A stretch of 62,280 nt of DNA from an uncultured Alphaproteobacteria bacterium (GTDB lineage Bacteria; Pseudomonadota; Alphaproteobacteria; Rhodobacterales; Rhodobacteraceae): the NCBI GenBank assembly GCA_902574225.1, contig CACGMO010000013.1:1-62280 (forward strand), read 5' to 3'. Numbering within the stretch: the first letter of the stretch is position 1; every line of letters begins with the position of its first letter. The notes beneath the pieces are model-generated. The model did no database searches and was not told the DNA's origin. It saw only the letters and a list, made by a program, of their open reading frames with translations. Of this stretch, positions 2 to 26,400 are shown piece after piece. A program made the position numbers and the translations under genes.

Positions 2-151
2 ACCTACTCAGATTTTGTGGTAGACTATAGCTCCTTTGTCAATAGACATCCTTCGCCTAGTTTAAAAATTCTCTTAGAAACTCCAAAACAAAAAAAGCAG
101 GTCTATGAGGATTATTATACAAAACCTAATTTCTCTGTAATAAGCGAGTAA
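2..151 (+). CDS. C-terminal end of an unknown protein, cut by the window start
   Basis: An open frame runs in from the left edge and stops with TAA at 149-151, giving 49 residues with no start in the window. The tail is hydrophilic (it includes SDFVVDYSS and NRHPSPSLKILLE) and reads like the end of a real soluble protein, but I do not recognise the family. It overlaps the truncated carbamoyltransferase remnant on the other strand (115-663), so one of the two reading frames was probably created by a rearrangement here. Moderate-to-low confidence because only the tail is visible. Confidence 0.4.
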   Translation, partial: TYSDFVVDYSSFVNRHPSPSLKILLETPKQKKQVYEDYYTKPNFSVISE

Positions 152-663
152 AGGGTTCCAATACCATTCCCGACCTGTTCGAAGATTAATTCTTGCGTGC
201 CTTCCTGAGTAAATGAAAATATAGATGTAGTTTGCTGGCGACTTCCCAGCCCATCTATTACAAGGACTGCTGCTTCTTTGAATGGCGAGGGCCAAAAAGC
301 TGTCAGTGCGTGCGCATAATGATGAGATTTTACAAATTTTATTTTGTCTTTTTTTATCCTCAGACGTGATCTAATGAAATCACCTATTAAAAGTCGATAG
401 TTATTCGAGGTTTTAATTGGTCTTTCTTCATCCATAAAATCTAGCATCAAAACATCTATATCATCTATACTAATGTCGAAGTAATCTAAGCAATATTTCA
501 TTGATCTTATAGGAAAATGATAACTCTTTTTCTTTCTTGAGAGGAAACCCTCTTCGGCTGATATTAAATCAAGCTTGTTTCCTTCCAATCTAACGATGCA
601 GCACGCTGGATCGTGGCTACAATAATTCATTATTCCCATTGAATAAATAGTTTTTGAAGACAT
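115..663 (-). pseudogene. truncated NodU/CmcH-type carbamoyltransferase (N-terminal fragment)
   Basis: The 182 residues match the start of the carbamoyltransferase family that O-carbamoylates sugars or antibiotics. The N-terminus has a SHDPACCIV segment like the family's G-x-x-x-x-H-D-(A/P)-(A/S). KSHHYAHALTAFWPSPF gives the conserved HHxAHA-type metal/substrate histidines near residues 115-120, followed by AAVLVIDGLGS. Family members are about 550-600 residues; this one stops right after TEKLGFV, just before the expected R-D/E-x-K-V-M-G-L-A block. The YrdC/Kae1-like remainder is absent from the DNA to the left, which instead carries the tail of another gene on the opposite strand. I therefore call it a decayed fragment. 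Its setting next to tRNA-associated repeats fits a variable surface-polysaccharide island. Confidence 0.65.
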
Positions 664-805: not shown

Positions 806-852
806 GCTGGGATGGTAGGATTCGAACCTCCGGTACACGGTGTCAAAACCCG
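806..852 (-). repeat. degenerate 3' part of tRNA-Gln (attachment-site remnant, older copy)
   Basis: These 47 nt match positions 5155-5201 of the intact tRNA-Gln with 4 differences. The copied part is the discriminator and 3' acceptor strand, T arm, variable loop, 3' anticodon stem and anticodon loop; the 5' half of the tRNA is absent. One difference disrupts the acceptor strand and another the T stem, so it cannot be a working tRNA. The match stops just past the anticodon loop, as is usual for integration sites of tyrosine recombinases. The following 126 nt match the DNA after the second copy (3571-3700). Confidence 0.85.
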
Positions 853-978
853 TGGATATTGTTATCAGGAGTTATCAGGTTTCCATAACTCTTTAAAATA
901 TTTCTTATCCTTCTCATGCTTCTTATAAGTTATCAGAAAATCATGAAAACTGGTTTCAAAAGTGTTATCAAAAATCTA
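853..978. repeat. attachment-arm-like region beside the older tRNA-Gln remnant
   Basis: The first 26 nt are identical to 3571-3596 and the rest matches 3597-3700 with scattered substitutions and small indels. It carries GTTATCAG-type octamers: two in direct orientation close together (861-878), one near 929-936, and a degenerate GTTATCAA near 963. Closely spaced directly repeated octamers beside a tRNA-derived core are typical of integrase arm-binding sites. The integrase itself is not found in the window. Confidence 0.6.
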
Positions 979-1003
979 TGGAGTGGCATTTGTAAAAATT
1001 GGG

Positions 1004-1348
1004 TTATTCTCTAAAATAGGTTTTGTCGATTTCTTCGTCCTCAGGAAGTAGAGCTGAAGTGAAACGTTCTGTCTCTATCACCATTGAATTAAAAAAGCGG
1101 TCCATACCCCAAGCACCTAGCTGTTTATAGACATGATCTTCGCTAACTGCTTGGAAATGAGTACAATAAAAGTTGCTGTTACTACCTTGCCATACTTGAA
1201 TTGCAGTGGCAAATTCACCAACAGTAGTTTTAGCCCATTCTCCGTGGGTTACTGTATCTGCATGCATTTCCCTAAAATATGATTTATATGCTTCTGCAGC
1301 TTCATCATCGTGAACGTCATGAATAACCATAAAATTTTTAATCATCAA
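1004..1348 (-). CDS. hypothetical protein, 114 residues
   Basis: A small acidic soluble protein with no signal peptide or membrane segment. The alternation of beta-like and helical stretches (FMVIHDVHDD, then AAEAYKSYFREMHA, then IQVWQGSNSNFYCTHFQA) recalls small ferredoxin-like dimeric alpha/beta-barrel proteins, but I cannot name a family. Two consecutive ATG codons are possible starts; AAGGG lies about 10 nt upstream. It is flanked by the older tRNA-Gln remnant and the cyclase gene, so it is probably cargo of the older insertion. Confidence 0.6.
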   Translation of the reverse strand: MMIKNFMVIHDVHDDEAAEAYKSYFREMHADTVTHGEWAKTTVGEFATAIQVWQGSNSNFYCTHFQAVSEDHVYKQLGAWGMDRFFNSMVIETERFTSALLPEDEEIDKTYFRE

Positions 1349-1540
1349 ATGGACCCTTGTTAAAGATTAGCTTCTTACACGATATATTAAACTAAACCAT
1401 TCATAGCTTGAAGCTTACATTCCCTAAAATTAAAGTCAAAATCTCTCACTGAGAGTAATTGTTGTCAAAATCAGAAAATAAATCATAAGGCTTTACGAAA
1501 GTTAATGTAGTATCGAAAGTGAACTATTAAGGAAGATCCA

Positions 1541-3493
1541 GTGTCTCGAAAAGATATAGACCGTAAGATAGCTGTTATATTTGTTGCTGACGTTGTTGGA
1601 TATTCGCAGCATATGAAAAAAGATGAGGATGAGACACTTCAAAGTTTCAGAGCCTGCAGAAAGATCTTGGAAAAATTATTTGATGAACATGATGGAAGAG
1701 TTTTTAATACTGCAGGGGACTCTATTTTGGCAGAGTTTTCAAGCGCTGTGTCGGCAGTTGTCTGTGCTTCAGAGTTTCAAAATCTCATAAAAGAAAGAAA
1801 CGATAATACGAGTTCATCTATAAAAATAGAGTTCCGTATTGGAATAAACATGGGCGATGTTGTGAAAGAGGGTGATAATCTTTATGGTGATGGGGTAAAC
1901 ATTGCAGCCAGACTAGAGGCACTTTCGCAACCTAACGGAGTGTGTTTGTCAAAGACCGTTTTCGATTTGGTTAGTAACAAAACAAAGTTTGTATTTAATG
2001 ATTTGGGTGAACAAAAAGTAAAGGATGAACAATTTCATGCTTTTGATGTTCTCATCGGCAATAATCAGAGACGTTCTGTAAAAGGCGCAAAGGGATTTAA
2101 TGCACCTCTGTATATCTCGATAGCTGTTGTAATTGGGTTAGTGATTGGAGTATTTTTTTATAGTTATATTAATAGAGAAAAATTTATGTTTATTGCCTCG
2201 CAAAATGATCAAATAAAGGGGCAGGCAAGCGGTAGGTCTTTATTAATACTTCCTTTTATAAATAAAAGTGGCTTAGATGAATTCGACTATTTATCTGAAG
2301 GAATTACTGATCACCTGATATCATCTATATCTCCAACGACCATATTGAATATTTTGTCTACACAAAGAAGCTACTTAATTTCAAAAAAGGAATATTCCAA
2401 TAAAAAATTAAGAGATGAGCTGGGCATTAATTTTCTCGTAAATGGGAGTATATTTACTTCAGATAAAAAATTTAGAGTGAATATCGAACTAGTAGATATT
2501 AAGAGAAATTCTAAGATATGGAGTTCAAATAAAGAGTATTTATTGACTGACTTGTTTTCTGCTCAAGATCAAATTGAGTCCTTGTTGAGGAGAGCTATTC
2601 AGACTCATTTGACAATGGGAAAAGTCTTTTCAAATTCCTTAGAAAAATATTTTGAAAATAAAGAGGACTACAAGGAGTTACTTTCGCTTAGGGCATTAAC
2701 ATTCCAAGAGGGTTTTGCAGTTACGGATGATTATGATCAACCATTTAAATTACTTGTCGAAAGAAACCCAGATAACTCAATGGCTGTATACTATTATGCT
2801 GATTCCTTATACCGAAAATTCCTAGCAAATAAACTAGACTTTAGAGATTATTCAAAAGCACATGAGGCTATTCTCAAAGCACAAGAATTAGATCCTGATA
2901 ATTCATTAGTTTATCCTTTGCTTGGACCAATAGAAACGTGGGTAATGGGGATCAATCAAATGGGACTAGAGGATACGCTATTAAAAGGCTTAAAAAAAGG
3001 AAGTGAAAATTACCGAACACTCGTGTTAATTGGAAATAATTTGAATAGTATTTCAAAGTTTTCAGAGGGGATTAGATATTTGAAGAAGGCAGTTAAAATT
3101 GCACCATATGGTCCAATAACCACAGAAATTTTTCTGATGCGCGCTTACATAGAGACTAAGAGGTTTGATGAAGCTAAAGATCTTTGCCTCACAATGATAG
3201 AAGAGGGAGGAAAGCAAGGTGCTCTTTGGGGAACAAGTTTTCTGGCCTTTTCAGAGTTCGTTACTGGAGAAAAAGAAAAAGCGAAGACACACTTAAAAAA
3301 TTTCATTGAAGAGAATAACTATACTTTAGATGAGCTAATACAAGATCTTAGAAATTCACCATTTTCAGCATCTGAATTGGATCAGTCTTTGGAAGATATG
3401 ATTTACATCTTTTTATATATGTTTGAACCGGAAAAGATTACGCCATATCAAGAGGCTTTATTTAGAAAAGATCTTTATTCTCTCGAAGACTAA
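1541..3493 (+). CDS. class III adenylate/guanylate cyclase with TPR-like C-terminus
   Basis: Predicted inner-membrane nucleotide cyclase of 650 residues. Residues 8-180 form a class III catalytic domain: FVADVVGYS holds the first metal aspartate (D17), GDSILAEF the second (D60), and GVNIAARLE (about 126-134) the transition-state Asn and Arg. One membrane helix lies at about 190-212. Then comes a SLLILPFINKS segment typical of the TolB/FlgO-like module found in bacterial cyclase-TPR proteins, and a C-terminal half of TPR-like helices (for example SLVYPLLGPIETW and GIRYLKKAVKIAPYGP). The start is GTG, with AAGGAAGA about 5 nt before it. It sits alone between the two tRNA-Gln remnants, so I infer it is cargo of the older island. 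The product nucleotide (cAMP or cGMP) cannot be told from this reading. Confidence 0.85.
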   Translation: MSRKDIDRKIAVIFVADVVGYSQHMKKDEDETLQSFRACRKILEKLFDEHDGRVFNTAGDSILAEFSSAVSAVVCASEFQNLIKERNDNTSSSIKIEFRIGINMGDVVKEGDNLYGDGVNIAARLEALSQPNGVCLSKTVFDLVSNKTKFVFNDLGEQKVKDEQFHAFDVLIGNNQRRSVKGAKGFNAPLYISIAVVIGLVIGVFFYSYINREKFMFIASQNDQIKGQASGRSLLILPFINKSGLDEFDYLSEGITDHLISSISPTTILNILSTQRSYLISKKEYSNKKLRDELGINFLVNGSIFTSDKKFRVNIELVDIKRNSKIWSSNKEYLLTDLFSAQDQIESLLRRAIQTHLTMGKVFSNSLEKYFENKEDYKELLSLRALTFQEGFAVTDDYDQPFKLLVERNPDNSMAVYYYADSLYRKFLANKLDFRDYSKAHEAILKAQELDPDNSLVYPLLGPIETWVMGINQMGLEDTLLKGLKKGSENYRTLVLIGNNLNSISKFSEGIRYLKKAVKIAPYGPITTEIFLMRAYIETKRFDEAKDLCLTMIEEGGKQGALWGTSFLAFSEFVTGEKEKAKTHLKNFIEENNYTLDELIQDLRNSPFSASELDQSLEDMIYIFLYMFEPEKITPYQEALFRKDLYSLED

Positions 3494-3523
3494 ATTAATT
3501 TTATCTACAAAAATAATTTATTA

Positions 3524-3570
3524 GCTGGGGTGGTAGGATTCGAACCTACGGTACACGGGATCAAAACCCG
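3524..3570 (-). repeat. perfect 3' part of tRNA-Gln (attachment-site copy, younger)
   Basis: A 47-nt exact copy of 5155-5201 of the intact tRNA-Gln, in the same orientation, covering the discriminator to just beyond the anticodon loop. The sequences part at the first base after the copied ACCCG (read on +). Together with the intact tRNA at 5153-5227 it brackets a segment of about 1.6 kb holding only the DEAD-box helicase gene. Perfect identity, against four changes in the copy at 806-852, suggests this was the later insertion. Confidence 0.9.
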
Positions 3571-3700
3571 TGGATATTGTTATCAGGAGTTATCAGTTTT
3601 CTCATAACCCTTTAAAATAGTTCTTATTTTTCTCATGTTTCTTATGCGTTATCAGGAAAATCACGAAAACTGTTGTCAAAATTGTTGTCAATATTCCTAT
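3571..3700. repeat. attachment-arm-like region beside the younger tRNA-Gln copy
   Basis: Homologous to 853-978. It contains TTATCAGGAGTTATCAG (two octamers), a third GTTATCAGG near 3648, and a direct repeat GTTGTCAAAATTGTTGTCAA at 3672-3691. The last bases include the TAG stop of the helicase gene (3697-3699). Such clustered direct repeats beside a tRNA core resemble integrase arm-type sites; the assignment is an inference from layout and repetition. Confidence 0.6.
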
Positions 3701-5091
3701 CTTTTTCTAAAGTTACGCCTGGAATTTTGGTTGCTTCTTTTCTTTTTTTTTCGATCATTTTTCATTTGAACAATTTGTTCTTCGCCAAGACTTTCTACCT
3801 CCTCTATCGGAGGTAGTTTTCCTTTGAAATTTTCAATTAGCGCTAAGGCCAAATCTTCATTAGAAAACCGAGTTAATAGCTCATTAGCAAACTTAAGTTC
3901 ACTAGAACTATTTTTTTGCTTTCTTGAAAGGTAGTTTATGATCTTTTCATTATCTTTAAGCTCTATTTCTTCCTGAGAAAGAAATTTATTAATAACCGGT
4001 CTTACCTTTGCAGAATTGATCAATTTTTCATATTTTCTCTTCTGGCCAGGTGAACAAAAAAGAATACTTCGCCCCTTATTCCCAGCTCTCCCGGTTCGCC
4101 CACTTCTGTGTATTAAGGTTTCTGGATTATGAGGGAGTTCAGCATGTATCACTATATCCAGGTTAACCAGGTCAATACCTCTTGCTGCTACGTCTGTCGC
4201 AACACATATCTTACACCTACCATTTTTTATGGATTGTAATGCCTTGAACCTCTCTGATTGATTTAATGCACCAGATAAGGAGACAACAGAAAAACCTCTA
4301 TTTAATATTCTAGAAGAAATATGCGTTACAGCATTCCTAGTAGAGCAAAAAATAATAATAGTCTTATCATCATGAAATCGGAGAAAGTTGAATATTGCAT
4401 TTTCAATATCATGTTTTTTTACTAAATATGTTTCATAAGAAATATCAGTGTGGGCTTTGCCAAGACTAGTAGCTTCAATTCTGACTGCGTTTTTTTGGTA
4501 CTTTGATGCTAATGACAATATTTTTTTTGGGATGGTTGCTGAAAACATAAGTACCCTCTTATTTGCGGGACTTTGATTTACAATCATATCTAAGTCTTGT
4601 TTAAAGCCCAAATCAAGCATTTCATCAGCTTCATCTAGGACAAGCGATCTTAGATAATTTAAGTGGAAAGTTTTCCGACGTATATGGTCATTAATCCTTC
4701 CTGGTGTTCCTATTAAAAGATCAACTCCTTTTGAAATATTTTTTCTTTCTTTTTTTATATCCATCCCACCGATCGCCGTTGAGATTCTGATCTCAGTCTT
4801 AGAAAACAGCCATGCTAACTCATTAAAAACCTGTAAAGCTAATTCTCGTGTGGGGGTAACGATTAGGGTTTTAAGTTTGTTATCTGAATCCAGGATTTCT
4901 TTGAGTCCAGCAACCGATATTGACAACCCATAAGCAAGTGTTTTGCCAGAGCCTGTTTGGGAGCTCACCAGAAGATCTTTATCATTGTTACCAGGATCAA
5001 GCACTAAGCTTTGAACAGTTGTTAGTTTGTCATACCCTTTTTCTTTTATTGAGAATTGTAATTCTTCAGGGATAGATTTTGTTTCAAGCAT
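3697..5091 (-). CDS. DEAD-box ATP-dependent RNA helicase
   Basis: RNA-unwinding ATPase of 464 residues with all superfamily 2 DEAD motifs. These are the Q motif region (Q27), motif I SQTGSGKT (44-51), PTRELA, TPGR, DEAD (about 153-156), SAT, the C-terminal ARGID block and HRSGRTGRAG. A strongly basic tail (KKKKRS...RRNFRKR) probably binds RNA. It resembles the RhlE/CsdA group, but I cannot assign one member. It starts at ATG only 62 nt beyond the 3' end of tRNA-Gln on the same strand, so it may be transcribed together with the tRNA. It is the only gene between the intact tRNA and the perfect attachment copy, which is unusual for a helicase normally thought of as core. Confidence 0.93.
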   Translation of the reverse strand: MLETKSIPEELQFSIKEKGYDKLTTVQSLVLDPGNNDKDLLVSSQTGSGKTLAYGLSISVAGLKEILDSDNKLKTLIVTPTRELALQVFNELAWLFSKTEIRISTAIGGMDIKKERKNISKGVDLLIGTPGRINDHIRRKTFHLNYLRSLVLDEADEMLDLGFKQDLDMIVNQSPANKRVLMFSATIPKKILSLASKYQKNAVRIEATSLGKAHTDISYETYLVKKHDIENAIFNFLRFHDDKTIIIFCSTRNAVTHISSRILNRGFSVVSLSGALNQSERFKALQSIKNGRCKICVATDVAARGIDLVNLDIVIHAELPHNPETLIHRSGRTGRAGNKGRSILFCSPGQKRKYEKLINSAKVRPVINKFLSQEEIELKDNEKIINYLSRKQKNSSSELKFANELLTRFSNEDLALALIENFKGKLPPIEEVESLGEEQIVQMKNDRKKKKRSNQNSRRNFRKR

Positions 5092-5152
5092 TCGCTCAAT
5101 CTATAGAATAATAAAAATAAAGATATAGCTAAGATTTATAATTTTCATAGGA

Positions 5153-5227
5153 TGGCTGGGGTGGTAGGATTCGAACCTACGGTACACGGGATCAAAACCC
5201 GCTGCCTTACCGCTTGGCTACACCCCA
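5153..5227 (-). tRNA. tRNA-Gln (anticodon UUG), with encoded CCA
   Basis: The minus strand folds as a complete tRNA. The acceptor strands are TGGGGTG and CACCCCA, discriminator G, with CCA encoded at 5153-5155. The D arm contains AGCCAAGCGGTAAGGC, the anticodon loop is TTTTGAT with anticodon TTG, and the T arm is GTAGG-TTCGAAT-CCTAC. It serves as the target of the attachment copies at 806-852 and 3524-3570. Confidence 0.97.
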
Positions 5228-5280: not shown

Positions 5281-6126
5281 TCAGTCAAAAGATTTTACAA
5301 CATTATCAATTGCTTTTATTTTAATTAATAACGCTGGTAATTGGTCTAGAGGAAGCATAGAAGCACCATCTGACGGTGCTGTCTCAGGCTTCTCATGGGT
5401 CTCAATAAACACACCTGCGATACCAACTGATGCACCCGCTTTTGCTAAAGTTTCGATAAACTCTCTTGAGCCACCACTCTCTGATCCTCTTCCTCCTGGT
5501 TGTTGAATAGAATGAGTAATATCTAAAATGGTTGGGAACCCACTTTTTCTAAGAATTTCCAGGGAACGCATGTCGCAAACCAAATCATTGTAGCCAAAGG
5601 TAGTGCCTCTTTCACAAAGGAGTAAATTTTTATTACCTGTAGATATGAATTTTTTGGCCACCTGCTGCATCTCAGGGGGGGATAGAAATTGCCCCTTCTT
5701 TATGTTGACTGGTTTATTTGTTTTACTAGCTGCTATGATTAAATCTGTCTGTCGGCAAAGAAAAGCAGGTATTTGTAGAATATCAACCTCTTTTGCTACA
5801 AGCTCGCATTGTTCGGGTGTGTGTATGTCTGTCAATGTGGAGATATTTAGACTGCTTTTCAATTTTTGAAAGATTTTAAGACTTTCATCAATTCCAAGAC
5901 CACGCTTTGATAAATGTGAAGTTCGGTTGGCCTTGTCAAATGACGATTTAAACACAAAGTTGATAGCGTTACGATCACAGATTTCTATTAATTTTTCAGC
6001 GATCATCATAGCATGCTCGAGGCTTTCAAGCTGGCATGGCCCAGAAATAAGTGTCAACGGGTACTTATTTGAGATTTTGAGATTATTCAGTTCAATTGTA
6101 TGGTCAGCAAGTTCAGTATTATCCAT
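5281..6126 (-). CDS. kdsA: 3-deoxy-8-phosphooctulonate synthase (KDO-8-phosphate synthase)
   Basis: Cytoplasmic enzyme that condenses arabinose 5-phosphate with phosphoenolpyruvate to give KDO 8-phosphate, the precursor of the lipopolysaccharide inner core. The 281 residues include GPCQLES near the N-terminus, VFKSSFDKANRTS (PEP-binding lysines), LTDIHTPEQ, the LQIPAFLCRQTDL strand, KKGQFLSP, and DVTHS-like LDITHSIQQPGG before HEKPETAPSDG. Length is normal for the family. It reads toward tRNA-Gln and diverges from the mnh cluster. Its presence shows that the cell makes an LPS-type outer membrane. Confidence 0.96.
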   Translation of the reverse strand: MDNTELADHTIELNNLKISNKYPLTLISGPCQLESLEHAMMIAEKLIEICDRNAINFVFKSSFDKANRTSHLSKRGLGIDESLKIFQKLKSSLNISTLTDIHTPEQCELVAKEVDILQIPAFLCRQTDLIIAASKTNKPVNIKKGQFLSPPEMQQVAKKFISTGNKNLLLCERGTTFGYNDLVCDMRSLEILRKSGFPTILDITHSIQQPGGRGSESGGSREFIETLAKAGASVGIAGVFIETHEKPETAPSDGASMLPLDQLPALLIKIKAIDNVVKSFD

Positions 6127-24741: not shown

Positions 24742-26400
24742 GAATTTCCTGTATTTCACTCTTTTTGGAATAACTGCTGCATCTCCCAACCTTCTTTTTT
24801 TATCATCTTCGTAATCATTAAAGTTACCTTCAAAGAATGTCATATTGCTCTCTCCCTCAAAGCCTAGGATATGAGTGCACAGTCTATCCATGAAAAATCT
24901 GTCATGTGATACGACTATCACGCAGCCTGCAAAATCTAGTATGGCTTCTTCAAGTACACGAAGTGTTTCAATGTCGAGATCGTTTGTCGGTTCATCCAAT
25001 AATAATACATTTCCACCTGATTTTAGTAACTTTGCAAGATGTACTCTGTTTCGTTCTCCACCTGACAATTGACCTACTCCTTTCTGTTGGTCAGGGCCTT
25101 TAAAATTGAATGCACCAACATATGCTCTGGAATTTACTTCCAAATCACCCAATTTAATTATATCTAAACCCCCTGAAATTTCTTCCCATACATTCTTTCC
25201 GTCGTCGAGTTTATCTCTACTTTGATCGACATAACTTAACTCAACAGTCTCTCCAATACTAATGTGACCACTAGTGAGAGACTCGTCACCTGTTAAAATT
25301 TTTAAAAGAGTTGATTTCCCAGCACCGTTAGCTCCTACTACTCCTATAATTGCTCCTGGGGGAATAGAAAAACTGAAGTCCTCAAATAGCATTTTATTTT
25401 CAAAAGTCTTTGTTATCTTTTCAGCATCTATTACTTTTGAGCCTAAACGTGGACCATTGGGAATTATAATTTGGGAAGTTGATATTTTTTCTTTTTTATC
25501 TTCATTCAGCAGATCTTGATAAGCACTAATTCGAGCCTTCTGTTTAGCCTGTCTAGCTTTAGCTCCTTGTCTAATCCAATCAAGTTCATTTTTCAAAATG
25601 GTATTCTTAGCTTTTTCGGTTTTTTCTTCTAATTCTAGTCTCGTGCTTTTATTTTCTAACCAGCCAGAATAATTTCCTTCGAAAGGGAAACCTTTTCCTC
25701 TATCGAGTTCCAGGATCCATCCAGTAATTTGATCTAGAAAATATCTGTCATGAGTTACAATCAAGATTGTACCTTTATAAGCTATCAAATGTTGTTGAAG
25801 CCAACTTACGGTTTCTGCATCTAGATGGTTGGTAGGTTCGTCTAATAAAAGCAAATCAGGCTCCTCAAGCAGTAATTTGCATAAGGCAACTCTTCTAATC
25901 TCTCCTCCAGATAATGTAGAAACAATCGAGGAGTCATCAGGACATCTTAGTGCCTCCATGGCCATATCAACTTTTGAGTCAATATCCCAAATTTGGAGTG
26001 AGTCAATCTTATCTTGAAGCTGTGTCATATCTGCCATTTTTTCATCAGAGTAATCATCTGCTAGTGATGCGGCTAAGTTATTAAATTGGTCTAGAAGTGA
26101 TTTTTTATCGGATACAGACGCTAAAACATTCTCCCTTACCGTTTTACTTTCGTCGAGCTTTGGTTCTTGTGGAAGGTAACCTACTTTTATCCCTTGAGCC
26201 GGATAAGCTTCACCATTAAATTCTCTTTCCAATCCTGCCATTATTTTTAATAGAGTGGATTTCCCAGCTCCATTCACTCCTACCAAACCAATTTTAACGC
26301 CAGGCAAAAATGATAATGTTATATTTTCAAAGCACTTTTTCCCATTTGGAAAGATTTTTGTTAATTCTTTTAGCGTGTATATATATTGATATGAACTCAT
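24733..26400 (-). CDS. ettA: energy-dependent translational throttle protein EttA (ABC-F)
   Basis: A 555-residue protein with two ABC ATPase domains and no membrane segments. The first half has GVNGAGKSTLLKIMAG, the LSGGEIRRVALCKLLL signature and LLLLDEPTNHLD. The second has GANGAGKSTLLKILTG, the LSGGERNRVHLAKLL signature and LLLDEPTNDLD. Between them is the charged P-site tRNA-interaction linker (about 245-300). The AYPAQGIKVGYLPQEPKLD and GNYSGWLE segments are typical of EttA, which gates ribosomes entering elongation according to the ATP/ADP ratio. It is divergent from nadD over 64 nt. Confidence 0.95.
   Translation of the reverse strand: MSSYQYIYTLKELTKIFPNGKKCFENITLSFLPGVKIGLVGVNGAGKSTLLKIMAGLEREFNGEAYPAQGIKVGYLPQEPKLDESKTVRENVLASVSDKKSLLDQFNNLAASLADDYSDEKMADMTQLQDKIDSLQIWDIDSKVDMAMEALRCPDDSSIVSTLSGGEIRRVALCKLLLEEPDLLLLDEPTNHLDAETVSWLQQHLIAYKGTILIVTHDRYFLDQITGWILELDRGKGFPFEGNYSGWLENKSTRLELEEKTEKAKNTILKNELDWIRQGAKARQAKQKARISAYQDLLNEDKKEKISTSQIIIPNGPRLGSKVIDAEKITKTFENKMLFEDFSFSIPPGAIIGVVGANGAGKSTLLKILTGDESLTSGHISIGETVELSYVDQSRDKLDDGKNVWEEISGGLDIIKLGDLEVNSRAYVGAFNFKGPDQQKGVGQLSGGERNRVHLAKLLKSGGNVLLLDEPTNDLDIETLRVLEEAILDFAGCVIVVSHDRFFMDRLCTHILGFEGESNMTFFEGNFNDYEDDKKRRLGDAAVIPKRVKYRKFST

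Follow-up and report, generated by a model that had tools for sequence, protein, structure and literature searches.

How did pieces of a single tRNA-Gln gene come to be repeated along one side of it, each with an arm attached, and which activity could have placed them there? We analyzed this question on contig CACGMO010000013.1 of an uncultured member of the Rhodobacteraceae, of which a stretch of 62,280 bp, here referred to as the window, was studied. The source genome of the window is named G000 and its contig C13, while all other G numbers designate compared genomes. Small gene packets were apparently inserted one after the other behind this tRNA-Gln and passed between species by means of a recombinase that the packets themselves do not carry. 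The best explanation, to which we assign a probability of about 0.78, is serial site-specific integration behind the tRNA-Gln with the recombinase coming from a transient helper, supplemented by recombination between the attachment arms of the packets.

Attachment sites and cargo behind the tRNA-Gln gene

The intact tRNA-Gln(TTG) gene was identified with ARAGORN at 5153-5227 on the minus strand and is the sole full-length match in G000. The next-best matches of this genome comprise 28 nt at 93% (contig C15) and 35 nt at 83% (contig C18, 29964-29998), the latter being located outside the array. The 3' part of the gene (5153-5201) forms the current tRNA-side attachment core. A repeat search detected two copies of this core on the minus strand, at 3524-3570 (47/47 identical) and at 806-852 (43/47). 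This is in agreement with an earlier note on this DNA, which had described one exact 47-nt copy of the tRNA 3' part and one with four changes. Both copies share the orientation of the intact gene, and a related arm of ~120 bp is found to the right of each. As the earlier note had proposed, the arms match: aligned over core plus arm, the two copies agree at 154 of 173 bases.

The attachment arm of the inner unit (P arm, 3571-3691, plus strand) carries five GTTRTCA boxes at 3579, 3589, 3648, 3672 and 3684, corresponding to offsets of +55, +65, +124, +148 and +160 from the core start. Boxes at 861, 871, 929 and 964 are present in the arm of the outer unit (853-971, plus strand), where one of the five has decayed. 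On the plus strand of the whole window the word GTTRTCA occurs 20 times, nine of these within the two arms.

The core copy at 3524-3570 separates an inner unit of 1.6 kb from an outer unit of 2.7 kb. Cargo of the inner unit is a DEAD-box helicase of 464 aa (3697-5091, minus strand; Pfam DEAD and Helicase_C), and the same unit is present in G011 and G018. Its tRNA-side border spans 5092-5152, where boxes of a second side were not found. The first half of the outer unit contains an ORF of 114 aa (c35; 1004-1348, minus strand), which gave no match in Pfam and PHROG searches and is also present in G007 and G009. The second half encodes a protein of 650 aa with an adenylate/guanylate cyclase domain (1541-3493, plus strand; Pfam Guanylate_cyc, E 4.7e-12, with weak TPR matches), relatives of which occur in units of other genomes. 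In G007 and G009 an intact second-side arm (P' arm) comes after the 114-aa ORF, at the tRNA. Only the first box of this arm is left in the window, a lone GTTGTCA at 1461-1467 on the plus strand, after which the sequence changes. This comparison suggests that two elements have fused to form the outer unit (853-3523), probably at the surviving box.

Pfam assigned no recombinase family to the three cargo ORFs of the window, and neither did PHROGs to two of them, the DEAD protein giving helicase-type matches only. Because the three cargo ORFs lack any integrase family, the question of decay versus mobilisation in trans was rightly posed by the earlier note.

Two further features delimit the units. 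The proximal part of the next older unit occupies 1-805 and contains the N-terminal fragment of a carbamoyltransferase (115-663, minus strand; Pfam PF02543). On the other side, a kdsA-like gene (5281-6126, minus strand; cluster c0 in 15 array sequences) represents the conserved chromosomal flank beside the tRNA. With 3520-3700 as query, contig C15 was found to carry at its end, past speE- and speD-like genes, two additional core-plus-arm copies (77% and 79%) as well as a remnant consisting of an arm only. In eight other genomes a single contig runs from speD through the array to tRNA-Gln and kdsA, with a speD-kdsA distance of 3.3-33.0 kb. For this reason C15 would be expected to run on into C13, as the continuation of the unit at 1-805, and G000 to hold at least five sites. 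The two nested insertions proposed by the earlier note therefore stand as successive site-specific integration but not as a count, as the window shows the proximal end of a longer array and its outer unit itself appears fused. The names kdsA, speE, speD, mnh, amidase, SPFH, thioesterase, DsbA, MBL, AMP-ligase, EamA and similar ones were given by eye from translations; this also applies to a terminase-like ORF of G018 and to DUF1800/DUF1501-like ORFs of G170.

Arrays in the genus and traces of transfer

The genus was represented by 22 genomes, each taken to stand for a different species, with completeness of 58-91% and with several arrays stopping at contig ends. A query from the window matched 20 of them, G001 with the tRNA only. 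Neither core plus arm nor tRNA plus kdsA was matched in G008 and G013, so the locus is probably unassembled there. A profile built from the copies gave 111 matches in 27 array sequences of 20 genomes. Fifteen of these lie at the tRNA and 96 are internal, 70 of the latter being nearly full length. At least two internal copies were present in 19 of the 22 genomes (12 in G003, partial ones counted), which argues that the core-plus-arm repeat of the window is not due to chance. The 60 intervals between neighbouring sites had a median of 2.5 kb, quartiles of 1.5-4.1 kb and a range of 0.7-10.5 kb. In a family sample of 149 genomes, one of them from this genus, 98 matched, yet core plus arm was confined to G000 and to G054 of a sister genus, the remaining 96 matches being 48 bases or shorter. 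An array common to the whole family was accordingly rejected.

ORFs called by a simple longest-ORF method formed 79 clusters within the arrays, of which 33 were shared and 46 occurred a single time. The cargo of most units is one or a few host-like genes. Cargo named by Pfam comprises trehalose-phosphate synthase and phosphatase, FG-GAP/ASPIC repeat proteins, methyltransferases, the DEAD helicase, an alcohol-dehydrogenase-like oxidoreductase with a DUF924 protein, and an ABC transporter set with SnoaL and LysR genes. Variants with other cargo between the same repeats, which the earlier note had suggested looking for, are abundant in relatives; a strictly empty tRNA-Gln site was not found in a sibling strain. 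The right border of the DEAD unit is the same or nearly the same in G000, where it lies at the tRNA, and in G011 and G018, where it lies at internal sites. The core between the DEAD unit and the DUF924 gene is gone in G016, G021, G007, G009 and G012, and therefore units also fuse.

Two observations on cargo are given here in their own right. A DEAD helicase gene stands directly beside speD in two of the 14 genomes with speD in view (G002, L059; G004, L042/L043) and is ~79-80% identical to the cassette version of G000; eight of the 12 remaining genomes have the cassette version in the array, as if the cassette had replaced the speD-side gene. Furthermore, small ORFs that look winged-helix-like by eye recur in units (L053:5288-5656, L134:5306-5680, L043:387-878), one with a MarR_2 match under the Pfam cut-off and the others with no meaningful Pfam or PHROG family.

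The ABC-transporter unit provides a trace of movement between genomes. For six of its seven genes, mean nucleotide identity across 15 genome pairs per gene is 99.2-99.6%, and for the seventh, the small ORF c24, it is 97.3%, while the flanking genes, with values from 4 to 6 of these pairs, have means of 0.904-0.953. Pairs below 60% identity or 85% coverage were dropped from the comparison of genes. A flank value was available for 462 gene comparisons, in 206 of which the gene lay more than 0.03 above it. The sharpest test is the identity profile across the tRNA. For each of the six pairs formed by G011, G016, G021 and G001, 60-base windows showed an identity of 0.95-1.00 as far as the core and throughout it, 0.85-0.92 between +120 and +240, and 0.83-0.98 farther into kdsA. 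Where its left end is visible, namely in three of these four genomes, the unit has different left neighbours. A mirror case is given by G005 and G015, which are 0.99-1.00 identical over 2.3 kb rightward from the core and 0.80-0.96 in the unit to the left. Identity thus breaks at the tRNA in both directions, as site-specific insertion predicts.

The sister genus extends this picture. Its oxidoreductase unit in G054 is 90-92% identical to ten copies of the genus (two of them truncated; the G017 cluster member gave no full-length alignment and was excluded), whereas kdsA reaches 59-61% in six comparisons. At each of the four internal G054 sites the sequence follows the local tRNA 3' half as far as CAAAA and continues with one of three arm types. 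Because the arm type switches after CAAAA, the crossover is most likely located at the anticodon loop. The sites at 912, 3976 and 7399 of G054 L134 combine the same tRNA core with two further arm types (one example having TATTGTCAC boxes), one of them with second-side boxes of its own before site 6101; no recombinase was identified for these two types. In the same genome (L134/L135, C10:23024-26451) an ORF that looks autotransporter-like by eye separates tRNA-Gln from kdsA, and close to kdsA, at 25565-25601, there is a 37-bp piece of the tRNA 5' part, as would be left by the displacement of a complete tRNA copy.

Within genomes, core identity tends to decrease with distance from the tRNA (mean rho -0.52 in six genomes; one of 500 permutations as low; 46 near-complete sites in 12 sequences, partial sites dropped). 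The order of units varies from genome to genome. Since every insertion leaves a scar, the array holds a rough record of the order in which units arrived.

Second arm, a putative helper element and rival explanations

Which recombinase could have acted? A second, tRNA-side arm with two boxes at -103/-114 (-105/-116 in G007) was found at four of the 15 tRNA loci, namely in G003, G007, G009 and G010, and furthermore at the G170 tRNA and at one internal G054 site. At the internal sites of the genus arrays a full second-side arm was present in none of the 71 that were scored; the other 25 of the 96 internal matches were left out owing to an ambiguous core start or a position too near the sequence start. 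G016 carries a clearly decayed second arm at the same offset (5303) and another candidate (7623) whose score alone lies inside the background. Ordinary units have the core at both ends and boxes at one end. The reverse of the GTTRTCA word occurs in none of 72 internal core-plus-arm stretches, all boxes having one orientation.

Among the arrays PF00589 was found in G003 only. Its element stands at the tRNA and encodes a tyrosine recombinase of 389 aa, a replication-initiation-like HTH protein and, as cargo, a flagellin gene. The same box words are present in the visible part of its distal arm and in its tRNA-side arm. The tyrosine recombinase with the same arms that the earlier note had proposed to search for thus exists in one relative, at the same tRNA and with the box words on both sides. 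Matches to the enzyme were detected in 11 of 385 genomes of the class (E <= 1e-20, identity 26-31%) and in none of the 149 genomes of the family sample, which did not include G003. Matches were obtained to 2173 phage records, all below 60% identity, with 15 among the matches listed at ~29-31%; viral contigs yielded no confirmed relative.

Other sources were considered for arm and vehicle. The exact arm pattern was present in none of the viral contigs and blastn with the arm gave no match in the phage and plasmid collections, so a phage or plasmid origin of the arm was rejected on these collections. A gene transfer agent as vehicle found no support either: the marker GTA_TIM was detected in none of the 22 genomes of the genus and, among 14 control genomes, in Caulobacter only. 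As a separate observation, contig C11 of G018 (L062) carries an arm without the tRNA-Gln core at 1994-2061, less than 1 kb from a tRNA-Ser (2879-2968) and from an ORF that resembles a small terminase subunit by eye.

From these data we infer the following course of events. An incoming circle with an arm and the 3' part of the tRNA would recombine with the tRNA gene, most likely in the anticodon loop. The tRNA would keep its 5' half and gain a new 3' half from the circle, and the displaced 3' half would remain as core beside the arm of the newcomer. Repeated integration would produce a ladder in which young copies tend to lie near the tRNA. A typical unit would have one arm, with five GTTRTCA boxes when young, and no recombinase. 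The activity would be supplied by a rare helper, such as the element at the G003 tRNA, which has a tyrosine recombinase and is bordered by boxes on either side, acting in trans or integrating beside resident units and departing with them. The helper would later be lost by excision or deletion, and homologous recombination between arms would delete and reshuffle units further. A bolder formulation, which we hold tentatively and at somewhat less than an even chance, sees an integron-like cassette platform with the tRNA as fixed insertion point, in which one-armed, recombinase-free packets, built on an arm-and-core site of the lambda type, are exchanged among species and genera of marine Alphaproteobacteria with small genomes, probably Rhodobacteraceae, and borrow the recombinase of a cargo-carrying transient helper.

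Several results weigh against serial integration with a helper. The recombinase of G003 was found in one of 23 genomes searched (E <= 1e-8), all of these genomes being incomplete, and C15 and C13 of G000 are separate contigs whose join is presumed. Gene identity fell below the flank by more than 0.03 in 70 of the 462 comparisons; additionally, the flank value stems from one to three genes and genes within a unit are not independent. Neighbouring pairs of sites alone gave 17 for the expected age order, 8 against and 9 ties (p=0.11). A strict age ladder is thereby rejected, and the claim of the earlier note that the outer, more diverged copy is the older one survives as a tendency, a partial age gradient, but not as a rule. 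Some orders, such as that of G004, where the DUF924-oxidoreductase unit stands between otsAB and the next unit, need internal insertion or rearrangement. Stronger constraint on the boxes than on the rest of the arm was not supported (conservation 0.877 versus 0.862, p=0.53). Finally, the cargo c38 is identical in G015 and G018 while its arms differ by 3%, and the cargo MT34 differs by 2% while its arms differ by 11% on average. Beyond young units the arms can thus not be regarded as faithful passengers of the cargo, and since they diverge more than the cargo in many pairs, arm exchange by homologous recombination is common.

This exchange could be extended to an explanation by homologous recombination only. 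Core and arm, ~170 bp, would then be portable homology through which fragments delivered by transformation, phages or gene transfer agents swap units, with site-specific insertion ancient or absent. Besides the arms exchanging more than cargo, it would account for the internal reordering of units and for the arm of G019. This arm resembles a chimera of two arm types between which the DEAD unit stands in G012, and precisely this unit is missing from G019. However, in six of six pairs the identity of the ABC unit drops at the tRNA despite the far longer homology on the kdsA side, the G054 sites with their three arm types switch at the anticodon loop, a recombinase element occupies the very site in G003, and the GTA_TIM marker is absent from all 22 genomes; we consider this explanation unlikely. 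Slightly better, though still improbable in our view, is the idea that the units are decayed remains of complete integrase elements, each stripped after its own insertion and without later integrase-less movement. The fusions and the broken second arms (1461 in the window, 5303 in G016) are what it would leave behind, and so are the second arms at the tRNA of G007, G009, G010 and G170, whose arrays show no recombinase. Yet the ABC unit and c38 are ~99-100% identical between genomes and lack both recombinase and second arm, so parallel stripping would be needed in each genome, and the oxidoreductase unit is common to two genera in the same stripped form.

If serial integration with a borrowed recombinase is retained, it may still take two forms. 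Units could move alone, one arm being sufficient in an integron-like manner, instead of riding with a helper. The lack of a full second arm at all 71 scored internal sites and in the recently moved ABC unit points in this direction, whereas the sole recombinase element seen has boxes on both sides and a ride with a helper that later excises would yield the same picture. We regard independent movement as possible, though less likely than not. An assembly artefact of the repeats can be practically dismissed: although some array contigs end inside an arm (G003 C8 and C38), the same junctions recur in independent assemblies and eight arrays are located on one contig with both flanks.

Relation to known systems

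Behind this one tRNA, in genomes of ~2 Mb, genes for trehalose synthesis, transporters, methyltransferases, helicases and other functions are collected as small packets that can be exchanged. If one-armed packets indeed move with a borrowed recombinase, metabolic genes would become portable without any mobility gene, and the mover of the 'additive' islands of aquatic bacteria would become a testable question. A description of an array of this kind was not found in the open-licence PMC literature searched.

Tycheposons combine a tyrosine recombinase, a tRNA site and cargo in aquatic bacteria. The earlier note had seen a resemblance to them, and host habitat, tRNA site and cargo are indeed alike. 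It breaks down on the recombinase, which is absent from the units of the window and present only in the G003 element, and on size. Tycheposons are quoted as 4-200 kb (PMC10872708), whereas the units here are mostly smaller, with 1.6 kb for the inner and 2.7 kb for the outer unit and with three quarters of the 60 intervals at or below 4.1 kb.

Closer counterparts are found among tandem islands. As described for Dehalococcoides, islands stand in tandem behind the single-copy RNA gene ssrA with many direct repeats of its 3' end and with variable cargo; 16 of them have an integration module and 15 do not, and the latter were suggested to be cis-mobilizable (PMC3146451). The target there is the tmRNA, with a serine recombinase and a 20-bp repeat, whereas we found a tRNA-Gln, a tyrosine recombinase, a 47-nt core with a shared boxed arm of ~120 bp and one recombinase element in the arrays of the genus. 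Cis-mobilizable elements (CIME) in general are described as lacking integration genes, standing one after another at a gene's 3' end, deriving from complete elements and, in the known cases, being able to leave with a neighbour (PMC5704250). Our units share the tandem position and the lack of integration genes, and the ride with a helper corresponds to the accretion process described there for such elements. They differ from that description by many small units per site (median 2.5 kb) and by the usual absence of the tRNA-side arm. Conjugation or transfer genes were not noticed in the units, although no search was aimed at them.

Additive flexible genomic islands with tRNA repeats have been reported in Actinomarinales, Methylopumilus and Alteromonas, together with cassette transfer between genera in Actinomarinales (PMC7771536, PMC10872708, PMC4119200). 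Cassettes added and lost at tRNA genes, a conserved locus and scars of tRNA repeats are also found here. The descriptions of these islands that we could draw on in the three reports name no shared attachment arm, one-armed units or helper at the site. Integron arrays, outlined in part in PMC4119200, likewise have a fixed insertion point with the newest cassettes beside it and a recombination site in each cassette; here, by contrast, a tRNA forms the site, direct repeats stand in place of the inverted boxes of attC, and no resident recombinase was seen except in G003.

The array is best read as a variant of additive islands and cis-mobilizable elements and, by the features tested, not as a tycheposon. 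To what is known of these systems it adds, as far as can be judged from sequence comparison, a shared arm architecture, a near absence of recombinases, one-armed units that appear to have crossed from genome to genome and whose breakpoints lie at the tRNA, and a single putative helper at the site.

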